A stretch of 64,000 nt of DNA from the NCBI GenBank assembly GCA_019636475.1, contig JAHBXN010000014.1, positions 1 to 64,000 of the forward strand, in the 5' to 3' direction. The translations under genes were made by a program, and so were the position numbers. The notes below the pieces were generated by a model. That model made no database searches, was not told the origin of the DNA, and saw only the letters and a list, made by a program, of their open reading frames with translations. Below are positions 39,346 to 43,500 of this stretch, piece after piece. The stretch is from Phycisphaerae bacterium (GTDB lineage: Bacteria; Planctomycetota; Phycisphaerae; UBA1845; UTPLA1). The number at the start of each line of letters is the position of its first letter. The stretch's first letter is position 1.

Positions 39346-39807
39346 ATGATGATCCAGACTTCAAGGTTCGGAGGAATTGAAGTAGATGACCAGCGGTTCC
39401 TGAATTTTCCGAAGGGGCTGCTGGGTTTTCCGGATGACCGCGAGTACGCGCTGATCCAGACGGGCGAGGACAGCGCATTTTACTGGATGCAGGCGGTGCA
39501 TCGACCTGAACTGGCGTTCGTGGTGTGCGACCCGCGTTTGTTCGTGCCGGACTATCGCATCGCGATCAAGACTGAGGATCTGGCCCAGATCGGCCTGGCG
39601 GACACGAGCGGCTCGCAGGTTTTTGTGATCGTGAACAAGGTCGAGGACATGCTGACGGGCAATCTGCAGGGTCCGCTGGTGATCAACATCGCGACGCGCG
39701 TGGGCAAGCAGCTCGTGCTTTCGGACAAGAAGTATTCGACCCGACATCCGCTAATGCGGCTGCCCGGTCAGCAGTCACAGCAGCGCGCGGTCAGCAAGAC
39801 GGCCTGA
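39346..39807 (+). CDS. fliW: flagellar assembly factor FliW
   Basis: A 153-residue cytoplasmic protein that binds flagellin and CsrA. In Bacillus, free FliW sequesters CsrA; when flagellin accumulates, it displaces CsrA, which then blocks flagellin translation. FliW signatures seen are FPKGLLGFPDDREYALI, YWMQAVHRPELAFVV and GPLVINIATRVGKQLVL (near residues 20-125). GGGAG lies before the ATG. It directly precedes csrA, and flagellin follows, the same neighbourhood as in firmicutes. Confidence 0.95.
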   Translation: MMIQTSRFGGIEVDDQRFLNFPKGLLGFPDDREYALIQTGEDSAFYWMQAVHRPELAFVVCDPRLFVPDYRIAIKTEDLAQIGLADTSGSQVFVIVNKVEDMLTGNLQGPLVINIATRVGKQLVLSDKKYSTRHPLMRLPGQQSQQRAVSKTA

Positions 39808-39977
39808 GCACCGGCGCAACGCAGGCTTTAAGGAACGCCTATGATGCACAGGGCGAGGCGTCGGTTTCGGCCGACGGGGCGAGTTTGCTCACGGTGCGCG
39901 ATGGGCTACGAAGGAATGGTGAGTCAAATGTCAGGACGACACCCGCGGGCTCGCGTCGACGGTCCATCGCGTCGGCG

Positions 39978-39994
39978 TGGCTCTGGAGGAGCCA
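39978..39994 (+). promoter_or_regulatory. GGA-loop hairpin overlapping the csrA Shine-Dalgarno
   Basis: TGGCTC (39978-39983) pairs with GAGCCA (39989-39994) around the loop TGGAG. The loop and 3' arm contain the GGAGGAG ribosome-binding site of csrA, whose ATG is at 39998. GGA in a hairpin loop at the translation start is the hallmark of a CsrA-bound site, so CsrA probably represses its own synthesis. Confidence 0.6.
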
Positions 39995-39997
39995 ACC

Positions 39998-40303
39998 ATG
40001 TTGGTGCTATCGCGTCAGCGCGATGAAACAATCATGATCGGAGACGACGTGGAAATCACCGTCGTCGACATCCGTGGCGACAAGGTTCGCCTCGGCATCA
40101 CAGCGCCGCCGCATATTCCGGTGCATCGCAAGGAGGTTTACGAGGCGATCAAGCGGGAGAATCGGGCGGCGGCAAACATCAAACCTGAAGATCTGCCGGA
40201 AGGGTCGCCTCCGCGCGGGCCGCAGCAGCCGCCAGGGTCACAGGGACCGCAGCCAGGTACGGGACGGAAGCCGAAGCAGGACAACCAGGGCAAGGGTTCA
40301 TGA
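39998..40303 (+). CDS. csrA: carbon storage regulator CsrA
   Basis: A 101-residue RNA-binding translational regulator, dimeric. The core [17 protein letters not shown], then [25 protein letters not shown] is typical. It is 40 residues longer than E. coli CsrA because of a Pro/Gly/Gln/Lys-rich tail after IKREN, likely disordered. The ATG at 39998 starts the conserved domain and has a strong ribosome-binding site, though this lies inside a hairpin. The genes around it (fliW, flagellin) indicate that it controls flagellin and flagellar output. Confidence 0.96.
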
Positions 40304-40395
40304 GTTCTTGATGCCGTCGGCCACGGAAGGCTGATTTCGGCGACCTTACGATTCGGCGCCTTGGGGCGCGATCGGATCTTCACGGAGGAATGCGT

Positions 40396-41838
40396 ATGAC
40401 ACGCATTAATACGAACACGTCCGCACTCGCAGCAGTGCGGAACCTATCCCGCTCGCAGCGATCGCTGCAATCCTCGCTTGAGCGGCTCTCGACCGGCCTG
40501 CGAATCAATCGCGGGGCGGACGATCCGGCGGGGTTGATCATCTCGCAGAACCTCCGTTCAGAGATTGAATCTGTTCGGCAGGCGATCGCGAACTCGCAGC
40601 GCGCCAGCAACGTCATTGCGACGACCGAAGGCGCGCTGGATGAGGTGGCGAACCTGCTGAATGACATCAAGAGTCTGATCATCGAGGCGGCCAACAGCGG
40701 CGCGGTGTCCGATGATGAGATTCGGGCCAACCAGCTTCAGATTGACGATGCGATCAATTCGATCACACGGATTGCGAATACGACCACGTTTGGCGGACGA
40801 AAGCTGCTTAACGGCTCGCTTTCGTACATCACCAGTGGCATCGTCGCGACACAGATCACCGACCTCAACATCAGCAAGGCGCAGCTGGGCACGGCGCCTT
40901 TCCTCCCGGTCGAAATCAATGTCATACAATCGGCACAGCGGGCACAACTATTCTTCCCGGTCGATGTGCTGAGCGGCTCCGTCACGATCGAGCTGGCCGG
41001 CCAGAACGGCGTGGACTCCATCGCGCTTCAGTCCGGTCAGACCGCGTCGCAGATCCTGGCCGCGATCAACAGCAAGACGGATGCGACCGGCGTCAGTGCG
41101 ACCTTCATCAACGGCAATGCGGCTTCGGGCATCATCCTCACCTCGGTCGGCTTTGGCAGCGATGCGTTCGTCAGCGTGCAGGAGATCGGCGGTAACGGCG
41201 CGATCCAGGCGCTGTTTGAGGACGAAACCGGTGCACAGAAGGCCCGCGACATCGGCCGCGACGTGTCGGCCACGATCAACGGCGCGGGTATCATCGGAAA
41301 GGGTCTGAACCTCGCGCTGAACAACAGCGCACTGGGCATCGAACTTCGGATTCAGGAGGCATTCAACACAAACGGGTCGGCCTCATCGTTTGCAATCGCC
41401 GGCGGTGGCGCGATCTTCCAGCTCGGACCCGGCGTGGACACGAATCAGCAGGTGAACATCGGGGTCCAATCGGTCGCTGCGACCCGGCTCGGCAACGCGA
41501 CAATCGGCTACTTGCAGGAGATTACCGACGCCGGGAAGTTCTCACTGACCAAGGGCGAAGCTTCACAGGCTGCGATGATCATCGAGGAGGCCATCAAGCA
41601 GGTATCGGTGTTGCGAGGGCGGCTCGGCGCCTTCGAAAAGAACACGCTCGATACCAACGTGAATCAGCTCTCGATCACGATGGAGAATCTGACGGCCGCC
41701 GAATCAAGCATTCGCGATCTGGACTTCGCGATGGAGACGGCGCAGTTGACTCGTAACCAGATTCTCGTGAGCGCGGGAACGAGCATCCTCGCGGTCGCCA
41801 ATCAAACGCCGCAGTCAGTGCTTTCGCTGCTTCGCTAG
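40396..41838 (+). CDS. fliC: flagellin
   Basis: A 480-residue filament subunit exported by the flagellar type III system. The conserved N-terminal D0/D1 region runs from TRINTNTSALAAVRNLSRSQ through LSTGLRINRGADDPAG and the C-terminal end ETAQLTRNQILVSAGTSILAVANQTPQSVLSLLR is standard (quoted in pieces). The central domain (about 195-290) contains a flagellin hook IN motif (VTIELAGQNGVDSIALQSGQ), probably forming the exposed surface. The ATG at 40396 is preferred to that at 40390, because GGAGGA is then at the right distance. FliW and CsrA upstream presumably control its translation. Confidence 0.95.
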   Translation: MTRINTNTSALAAVRNLSRSQRSLQSSLERLSTGLRINRGADDPAGLIISQNLRSEIESVRQAIANSQRASNVIATTEGALDEVANLLNDIKSLIIEAANSGAVSDDEIRANQLQIDDAINSITRIANTTTFGGRKLLNGSLSYITSGIVATQITDLNISKAQLGTAPFLPVEINVIQSAQRAQLFFPVDVLSGSVTIELAGQNGVDSIALQSGQTASQILAAINSKTDATGVSATFINGNAASGIILTSVGFGSDAFVSVQEIGGNGAIQALFEDETGAQKARDIGRDVSATINGAGIIGKGLNLALNNSALGIELRIQEAFNTNGSASSFAIAGGGAIFQLGPGVDTNQQVNIGVQSVAATRLGNATIGYLQEITDAGKFSLTKGEASQAAMIIEEAIKQVSVLRGRLGAFEKNTLDTNVNQLSITMENLTAAESSIRDLDFAMETAQLTRNQILVSAGTSILAVANQTPQSVLSLLR

Positions 41839-41903: not shown

Positions 41904-41934
41904 GCCCGCGGCAGACGTGTCGCGGGCTTTTCTC
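41904..41934 (+). terminator. rho-independent terminator of the flagellin gene
   Basis: GCCCGCG (41904-41910) pairs with CGCGGGC (41921-41927) around a 10-base loop and is followed by TTTTCT. It ends the flagellar block and lies before the -10 box of the next gene. Confidence 0.85.
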
Positions 41935-41957
41935 ATTCTACCGGGATTGCGTTCCAG

Positions 41958-41963
41958 TATACT
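41958..41963 (+). promoter_or_regulatory. -10 box of the DNA methyltransferase, leaderless-type
   Basis: TATACT 7 bases before the ATG at 41971, with no Shine-Dalgarno in between, in a spot where the -10 to start distance suggests that the transcript begins at or next to the start codon. Confidence 0.5.
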
Positions 41964-41970
41964 GTGGCCG

Positions 41971-43500
41971 ATGTCGCGACAGGGGATGTCATTTGATAAA
42001 CAGATCGCATCGCGGCGCGCGCTGGGGCAGGTCTTCACGCCGCGAGCGGTGGCGGATTGGATGACGGCGTGGGCCTGCGCGCATGGGCCGAGATCGATTC
42101 TCGATCCTGCCTTGGGGCCTGGCGTCTTTGTCGATGCAGCGGCGTCTTATTTCGCCTTCCGTGGCTTTCCAGATCGACCGTCGGTGGATGCATACGATGT
42201 GGACGCTGCGATGATCCGCTCGTTTTGCGCTCCGGCGGAACTGGGCGTCGTCACGTGCCGATGCGAGGACTTTCTGACGGCCGAGCTTCCTCGGGCTTAC
42301 GAGGCGATCCTTGCAAATCCGCCTTATGTGCGGCATCACGCTCATCGTTACGGCGAGTCGGTATTCGGTCGATTTGATCGGCTTTGCGGACGTCGCCTCA
42401 GTCGACTGACGAATGTTTATGGGCTGTTTCTGCTTCGCATCTGGGAAGCCCTGGCGCCCAGCGGGCGGGCGGCGGTCATCACACCGGCCGAATGGCTGAA
42501 CGCCGACTTCGGAGCGCCGATCAAGGCATTTCTTCTGGAACGGAACGGACTCGACGGTATCGTGCAGTTTCCACATGCTTCGAAGGTGTTTCAGGATGTC
42601 ATGACCACGGCAGCGATCACACTGTTGCGGAGGGGCCGTGGCGATGACGAACCGGTTCAATTGGCTACGGTCGAGACGGCCGGAGGACCGGACGATCGCC
42701 TGTTGGAGCGTGCGCCGGGTGTTCCTCGGAGCGTGCTTGATCCGAAGCGAAAGTGGACGCCGCTGTTCGAAGCGCGCGGGCAGGGTTCGACAAGCTTAGG
42801 GGGCGGACGTTCGCGACATCGCTCGGTCAGGCCCGTTGCGGACGCGATTACGCTAGGGAGTCTGGCGCGGTGTGTTCGAGGAATTGCCACGGGAGCCAAC
42901 CAGTACTTCACGCTTCGCGAATCGGATCGGATGCGACACGGATTGGATCGCGCGGATTTTTCGATTTGTGTGACGAAGGCGCAGTCCGCGATCGGATCAG
43001 TCTTCTCGCTCGATGACGTGGAACGATTGATCAAGGCGGATCAGCGGATTTATCTGTTGAGTCCGCGCGAGCCGCTCAGCGAGCCGGTGCAGGCGTACCT
43101 CGATTGGGGCAAATCTCTGGGAATTCACCGGCGGTATCTGCCCGCGCATCGGCCGGTGTGGTTCAGGCCGGAGCACCGTCCGGCGGCGCCGATCTGGGTG
43201 TCTGTGTTCGCGCGCGGCCGATTCAGGTTTGTCCGGAACGAGGCAGCGGCACTGAATCTGACGGCTTTTCATGGACTGTATCCTCGGACCGACGCCGCCG
43301 CGCTCATGGAGCGTTTGTTCGAATACCTGACAAGCGATGCTGCGCAGGATGCACTGTCCTGTCATCGGCGGATCTATGCAGAGGGACTGCTGAAACTGGA
43401 GCCTCGGGACGTGGAGGCGATTGAAGTTCCTCGAACGCTTTTCGGCGCGAGTCAGTTCCCTGTCACCGCGTTGAGGAATTCCTCGATGCGCGGACCATAG
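41971..43500 (+). CDS. solitary N6-adenine DNA methyltransferase (Eco57I-like)
   Basis: About 509 residues. Motif X-like GQVFTPRAVADWM lies at about 19-31, the SAM-binding motif I LDPALGPG at 44-51, and the catalytic NPPY at 116-119, which marks N6-adenine (or N4-cytosine) methyltransferases. The rest contains a target-recognition-like region (about 300-480). No restriction nuclease or specificity subunit is adjacent. It may guard the cell's own DNA, act in regulation, or be the remains of a restriction system. The ATG at 41971 follows a TATACT box by seven bases; there is no ribosome-binding site. The last 49 bases overlap the convergent hydrolase gene. Confidence 0.85.
   Translation: MSRQGMSFDKQIASRRALGQVFTPRAVADWMTAWACAHGPRSILDPALGPGVFVDAAASYFAFRGFPDRPSVDAYDVDAAMIRSFCAPAELGVVTCRCEDFLTAELPRAYEAILANPPYVRHHAHRYGESVFGRFDRLCGRRLSRLTNVYGLFLLRIWEALAPSGRAAVITPAEWLNADFGAPIKAFLLERNGLDGIVQFPHASKVFQDVMTTAAITLLRRGRGDDEPVQLATVETAGGPDDRLLERAPGVPRSVLDPKRKWTPLFEARGQGSTSLGGGRSRHRSVRPVADAITLGSLARCVRGIATGANQYFTLRESDRMRHGLDRADFSICVTKAQSAIGSVFSLDDVERLIKADQRIYLLSPREPLSEPVQAYLDWGKSLGIHRRYLPAHRPVWFRPEHRPAAPIWVSVFARGRFRFVRNEAAALNLTAFHGLYPRTDAAALMERLFEYLTSDAAQDALSCHRRIYAEGLLKLEPRDVEAIEVPRTLFGASQFPVTALRNSSMRGP

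Follow-up and report, generated by a model that had tools for sequence, protein, structure and literature searches.

In Escherichia coli, csrA represses itself through GGA motifs in its own leader, one of which lies on the Shine-Dalgarno sequence; the system comprises four sites, five promoters and the CsrB/C sRNAs and lacks FliW (PMC7652899; papers are cited here by PMC number). CsrA of Legionella pneumophila is reported to bind its own transcript and to inhibit its translation (PMC5338858), a finding made by experiment, whereas the present study draws on sequence alone. In Bacillus subtilis and Campylobacter jejuni, fliW, csrA and flagellin stand together and the flagellin leader carries GGA hexaloops (PMC4894983, PMC7652899), two of them adjacent in C. 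jejuni flaA (PMC4894983, PMC7652899, PMC6529632); the phrase 'csrA mRNA' is absent from the main text of PMC4894983. Flagellin control by FliW and CsrA operates near 1:1:1 in B. subtilis (PMC6529632), which makes the way csrA sets its own level a direct question. For RsmE, an ANGGAX hexaloop that sits immediately on a stem makes the best site, an AGGAX pentaloop is weaker, and the core bases are irreplaceable; a strong upstream site recruits the dimer to a weak site at the ribosome-binding site (PMC4005645).

An action of FliW on CsrA has already been proposed for Planctomycetes (PMC4682653). In other Planctomycetota, csrA has been noted in the phylum and sigma-54 promoters have been described in Pirellula (PMC12316311), in a paper that concerns transcription in another class and whose extract makes no mention of leader RNA. 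A literature search covering few subscription journals returned no study of csrA leaders of Planctomycetota among the matches listed. Self-repression of csrA is a known mechanism that is apparently undescribed in this group, and the comparative data presented here give testable sites in a class for which those matches hold no csrA-leader study.

At the locus analysed here, as in B. subtilis and C. jejuni, fliW, csrA and flagellin adjoin, but in part of the clade the fliA, csrA and fliW leaders also carry A(N)GGAX hairpins. As in the RsmE sites of hcnA mRNA and RsmZ RNA (PMC4005645), candidate strong and weak GGA sites occur together, as hexaloops and as AGGAX pentaloops on stems. Unlike E. coli csrA, the gene here appears to have one candidate upstream site, one weak site at the Shine-Dalgarno sequence and one candidate promoter element, and fliW adjoins it.

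The fliW-csrA-flagellin locus

The stretch of DNA analysed, referred to as the window, comprises 64,000 nucleotides from a Phycisphaerae bacterium, and the window features described below from fliW to flagellin lie on the + strand. fliW (39346..39807; PF02623, E 2.8e-36) precedes csrA (39998..40303, 101 aa), which Pfam and NCBIfam both assign to CsrA (PF02599, E 2.1e-25; NF002469 and TIGR00202 over the cut-off), and a flagellin gene follows (40396..41838; PF00669, PF00700). The flagellin start at 40396, taken from an alignment of 105 starts of relatives, is likelier than the first in-frame ATG at 40390. The window CsrA has residues L4, R6 and R44 in common with the solved CsrA chain 7yr6_E; in view of the roles of these residues, this may count toward csrA self-repression.

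The window also carries flgK and flgL. A 527-codon frame 3' of flagellin (41917-43500) contains NPPY, a motif found in DNA adenine methyltransferases. A search of the whole window with Rfam at gathering scores gave two tRNAs and nothing else, and a plasmid search with the window gave no match.

The hairpin over the csrA Shine-Dalgarno sequence

An earlier note on this DNA had placed a CsrA-type hairpin at 39978-39998, over the csrA Shine-Dalgarno sequence. The hairpin is present, although it ends at 39994: TGGCTC (39978-39983) and GAGCCA (39989-39994) form six Watson-Crick pairs around the loop UGGAG (TGGAG, 39984-39988), and ACC and the ATG (39998-40000) follow. The Shine-Dalgarno sequence GGAGGAG (39985..39991) occupies the loop and the 3' arm, as the note had it, and stands 7-13 bases before the ATG, with a spacing of 6, rather than the 'four to nine' bases given there.

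The MFE structure of 39950-40020 includes the reported hairpin, with an inner U-G pair (leaving a GGA triloop) and the outer U-A pair open. In a 209-nt context, five of the six pairs are predicted with P 0.97-0.98 and the outer pair with P 0.38. In that context, the first GGA (39985-39987) is predicted to be unpaired (P at least 0.98), the second to be mostly paired, and GGAGGAG to have roughly half of its bases in pairs. The part of the claim that concerns an unpaired GGA in the loop thus agrees with the prediction; the core A that should precede (N)GGA is missing, the loop UGGAG having U in its place when compared with RsmE sites (PMC4005645). With a loop that lacks the core A of A(N)GGAX, the reported hairpin looks poor as a CsrA site.

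As a background, we took 132 genes with GGA in the Shine-Dalgarno region from the window and from 15 stretches of 20 kb of its genome, counting only frames of 450 nt or more and GGA loops of 3-8 nt and placing gene starts by a crude rule; csrA itself is absent from this set because only frames of that length were taken. The best GGA-loop stem reaches 6 or more pairs in 8/132 genes and is all Watson-Crick in 2/132, which places the reported hairpin in roughly the top 2-6 percent, above typical but not extraordinary for its own genome. Among the best background hairpins is TTGAACA-ACGGAG-TGTTCAA, over the Shine-Dalgarno sequence of a FliA/WhiG sigma factor (TIGR02479).

These frequencies bear on the explanation that the reported hairpin arose by chance, its genome being G+C-rich, and has no function. 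We regard this as unlikely: equally long stems in 8 of the 132 genes, and the absence of the pairing from most relatives (see below), are what it would lead one to expect, but all-Watson-Crick stems of at least 6 pairs are confined to 2 of the 132, one of which is that of fliA, a likely CsrA target. Two members of the window's family (L008, L009) moreover carry a different hairpin over the csrA Shine-Dalgarno sequence, CCAGG-AAGGAG-CCTGG, which also speaks against chance.

Conservation of the pairing in the order

PF02599 was detected in 110/114 genomes of the order. fliW lies upstream at 108 of 121 csrA loci, and 105 of these (105/121) also have flagellin downstream. This gene order, together with the CsrA-type hairpin on the flagellin Shine-Dalgarno sequence described below, fits the CsrA-FliW-flagellin circuit. 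The 108 csrA leaders were aligned (alignment A1); the 13 csrA loci without fliW, some of them at contig ends, were omitted, and so were nine weak paralogues of csrA (L017-L025) and other, weaker PF02599 matches.

Two blocks are conserved in the 108 gaps between fliW and csrA, one TATAAT-like and about 150 nt before csrA, the other, GCATCGGCATGGCCAAGGAAGGAGCCGAGG, in the leader ahead of the ATG. In the window, TATGAT (39840..39845) sits in the gap and resembles the block CTATAATG of this alignment. It is possibly the counterpart of the order-wide TATAAT-like block and the -10 element of a csrA promoter, in which case the leader would measure about 146 nt. We also weighed GCATCGGC by eye as a sigma-54 or other promoter and dropped it. 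A conserved upstream peptide was likewise dropped, an ATG being found near that place in just 34/108 leaders.

The pairing of the reported hairpin is not conserved among these leaders. RNAalifold on all 108 returned two pairs only (-0.16 kcal/mol). Specifically, of the cells for the window's six pairs 47.3 percent are paired, and the two loop-closing pairs exist in 4 and 11 of the 97 distinct rows; compensatory changes in the stem show no excess over shuffles. The expectation that relatives keep the stem by compensatory change therefore fails, and so, with a pairing unconserved over 108 leaders, does the reported hairpin in the conservation test set beforehand. The reported hairpin looks like a weak, recent variant, with better supported candidate sites close by and on other flagellum genes.

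CsrA-type hairpins in csrA leaders

The 150 nt upstream of csrA were scanned for A(N)GGAX hairpins of 4 or more pairs, in counts that ignore kinship. The other orders of the class have them in 39/59 csrA leaders (mean of shuffles 2.3, maximum 5), a sample obtained from 60 fliW loci picked from the matches listed, one of which (L228) gave no csrA by pattern. The window's family has them in 7/15 leaders (shuffle mean 0.6, maximum 3) and the order in 15/108 (mean 3.6, maximum 10); the order minus the window's family has 8/93, merely equal to the shuffle maximum of 8 (null mean 3.3). The csrA coding sequence, used as a control, has such a hairpin in 0/59 and 0/108 cases (0/167 in all), below its own shuffles (2.3 and 3.7).

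Hexaloops were also counted alone. Outside the order, they are found in 24/59 leaders at -80 to -1 and in 14/59 at -160 to -81 (nulls below 1), and 9/59 class leaders carry two hexaloop sites each; in the order, the corresponding counts are 7/108 and 4/108 (nulls 1.1 and 0.6). The stems of the A(N)GGAX sites found vary among species. A wider count, which allowed any GGA loop no longer than 16 nt, found 49/108 leaders with stems of 5 or more pairs, against 29.8 in shuffles (maximum 44), and was set aside, unrelated hairpins being mixed in it. A second type of csrA, beside which no fliW was found, has an identical hairpin GCCAA-AGGAG-TTGGC over the Shine-Dalgarno sequence in five genomes of one genus (L046, L068, L070, L071, L073).

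The window leader has one A(N)GGAX hairpin, the pentaloop UGUC-AGGAC-GACA at 39929..39941 (GGA at 39934-39936), a candidate upstream CsrA site on the strength of the predicted fold and the leader counts. It has 4 pairs and a predicted P of about 0.46. When the window's csrA leader is shuffled 500 times, such a site turns up in 18 of the shuffles. Its GGA lies 51 nt before the GGA of the Shine-Dalgarno hairpin, and five of the 15 family members (L001, L004, L005, L010, L011) have a site at -52 to -64, with differing stems.

We propose, with a probability of about one half, that csrA represses its own translation through an upstream anchor and a weak site at the Shine-Dalgarno sequence. A CsrA dimer would anchor on the leader hairpin at 39929-39941, and its second site would cover the GGA at 39985-39987, so that ribosomes could not start, much as with the strong and weak RsmE sites and, in broad terms, E. 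coli csrA. The motif's presence over the Shine-Dalgarno sequences of flagellin and fliA (see below) favours this proposal. The reported hairpin would then act as the low-affinity second site and keep the Shine-Dalgarno sequence half hidden. Binding and repression by CsrA, like a role of FliW in the circuit, are what we infer from the sequences, gene order, statistics and predicted folds. In its outline, the autorepression that the earlier note had proposed gains support, given the enrichment in class leaders, the fliW and flagellin neighbours, and a flagellin Shine-Dalgarno hairpin with compensatory changes; its detail does not, as the hairpin named there lacks the core A and its pairing is unconserved in the order. 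We go no higher than one half because 8/15 family members have no A(N)GGAX hairpin within the 150 nt of csrA leader.

Alternatively, the reported hairpin may merely shield the ribosome-binding site and impose a constant, lower translation of csrA, with no CsrA on it. Such shielding would accord with a loop that lacks the A(N)GGAX core, with a stem that is predicted to be stable and to pair about half of GGAGGAG, and with the lack of order-wide conservation. A covariance model, R1, built from 25 of 53 distinct flagellin and fliA hairpins of the clade, also misses the reported hairpin, which is not among its nine matches in the window with E up to 10; this weighs little, because R1 misses the window's flagellin Shine-Dalgarno hairpin as well. 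Constant shielding accounts poorly for the enrichment of CsrA-type hairpins in class csrA leaders and for the A(N)GGAX hairpin upstream in the same leader, and we consider it rather improbable.

An arm complementary to the csrA start

In the order, the leader has a consensus arm, GCAUCGGCAU, with ten-base complementarity, G-U pairs counted, to AUGUUGGUGC, which holds the start codon of csrA and the codons after it. The window's version, GCGUCGGCGU (the arm GCGTCGGCGT at 39969..39978), pairs 10/10, with G-U pairs, with 39998-40007. This complementarity suggests a start-codon switch, in which the arm would hide the start codon and leave the Shine-Dalgarno sequence and the GGA motifs in the loop, and the choice between the closed and the open state would fall to ribosomes, to CsrA or to some other molecule that partners the arm.

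The pairing is frequent in the order. The arm-start stem scores at least 9 in 66/108 leaders, against a mean of 5.6 (maximum 12 in 100 rounds) for shuffled arms and 8/108 for a control stretch upstream, and at least 9/10 pairs form in 68/108 leaders, whereas the four shifted stretches tried give 3 to 9. In addition, 83.2 percent of cells are paired, compared with 30-54 percent in slid versions, and double-change cells number 6, against 1.6 in shuffles; 1 of 500 shuffles reaches this percentage or this number of cells. Leaders in which the arm sequence is retained more often have TTG as codon 2 (67/71, others 25/37) and GTG as codon 3 (68/71, others 25/37). Each of these results, like the perfect match in the window, favours the switch.

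The manner in which the arm varies argues the other way. Changes are mostly one-sided, and most pairs survive a transition in the arm in any case. The covariation score is no better than that of shuffles, 231 of the 500 attaining it, and double-change cells are more numerous in slid versions (10-20 against 6). Other codons 2-3 are found in 6/71 arm-bearing leaders, the arm pairs predominantly with the start region in 32 of 61 leaders folded, and the counts ignore kinship. For the window, the MFE structure of 39969-40008 alone nests the reported hairpin inside the arm-start stem, but the longer fold, in the 209-nt context, gives that stem a probability of 0. Outside the order, the arm occurs in 3/59 leaders, all of family f14. 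On balance we lean against the switch while giving it more weight than either shielding or chance.

Two other pairings were tried and rejected. An outer stem of GCAU/AUGU and GGC/GCC is paired in 82.2 percent of cells, but its compensatory cells number 2 against 2.5 in shuffles and its covariation score falls below all 500 shuffles; GGC/GCC also fails by eye where the leader has GAACC, and this stem was replaced by the 10-bp arm-start stem. We also dropped the idea that the arm pairs at long range, either with csrA itself or with leader sequence further upstream: exact complements of 7 were found twice and of 8 never.

Hairpins on flagellin, fliA and fliW

Alignment A2, which served as a positive control, comprises 105 flagellin leaders, three of the 108 loci without flagellin being omitted. 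The loop over the flagellin Shine-Dalgarno sequence is ANGGAG in 103/105 leaders, and the contiguous stem has at least 5 pairs in 60/105. The stem is paired in 78 percent of cells, against 21 to 65 percent for slid versions, and 5/6 pairs have changes on both sides. Double-change cells number 21, compared with 8.6 in shuffles, none of which (0/500) reaches 21, although such cells are more numerous in two of the six slid versions (31 and 30), whose covariation score is nearly equal. Among the loci of other orders, 47/59 have an ANGGAG stem of at least 4 pairs before a possible start 3' of csrA, putatively that of flagellin.

The flagellin stem is short in part of the order: 27/105 rows, mostly of family f3, have just 2 contiguous pairs, and the window has 3, in UUC-ACGGAG-GAA (40379..40390), a short form of the hairpin that is widespread in the order. 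The window's flagellin leader also has a candidate hexaloop site further upstream, GGCC-ACGGAA-GGCU (40319..40332), which R1 matches weakly (9.8 bits, E 7.6).

The Shine-Dalgarno sequence of fliA in the own genome lies in the perfect 7-bp ACGGAG hairpin of the background set (G000:C1:65783-65802; L132, L176). Among 30 fliA loci, the own genome included (L146-L175), 17 have a hairpin of at least 5 pairs, namely 15/17 loci of the window's family and both members of family f2; no hairpin of this kind was seen at fliA of the 11 members of family f7. The fliA stems differ (GAACA/TGTTC, GGAACG/TGTTCC, AACAACA/TGTTGTT). In addition, 18/71 named loci have a fliA-type hairpin before a possible start. 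The distribution of these hairpins suggests that sigma-28 and flagellin are under translational control by the same protein.

Hexaloop hairpins are also found in fliW leaders, in 16/59 and 15/107 cases (nulls 0.8 and 1.1), with fliW starts that are approximate. In twelve leaders of the window's family, a G+C-rich hairpin with a changing stem lies directly before the fliW Shine-Dalgarno sequence, and some fliW leaders elsewhere contain A(N)GGAX hairpins.

A broader reading, doubtful as a whole, is that CsrA and FliW of Phycisphaerae form a closed network. CsrA-type hairpins would place the flagellin, fliA (sigma-28), fliW and csrA leaders under its control, and in most of one order the csrA arm, by pairing with the start and the first codons (conserved synonymous codons), would add a translational switch with two states, the Shine-Dalgarno sequence and overlapping CsrA motifs being presented in its loop.

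A search of the own genome with R1 gave two matches with E below 0.1. One is the fliA hairpin (25.9 bits), whose sequence is itself part of R1. The other (24.1 bits), which was outside the R1 build, is TCAAACC-ATGGAG-GGTTTGA (G000:C5:374353-374372, L177) and lies before an unannotated 498-codon frame, the first 200 residues of which have no Pfam match.
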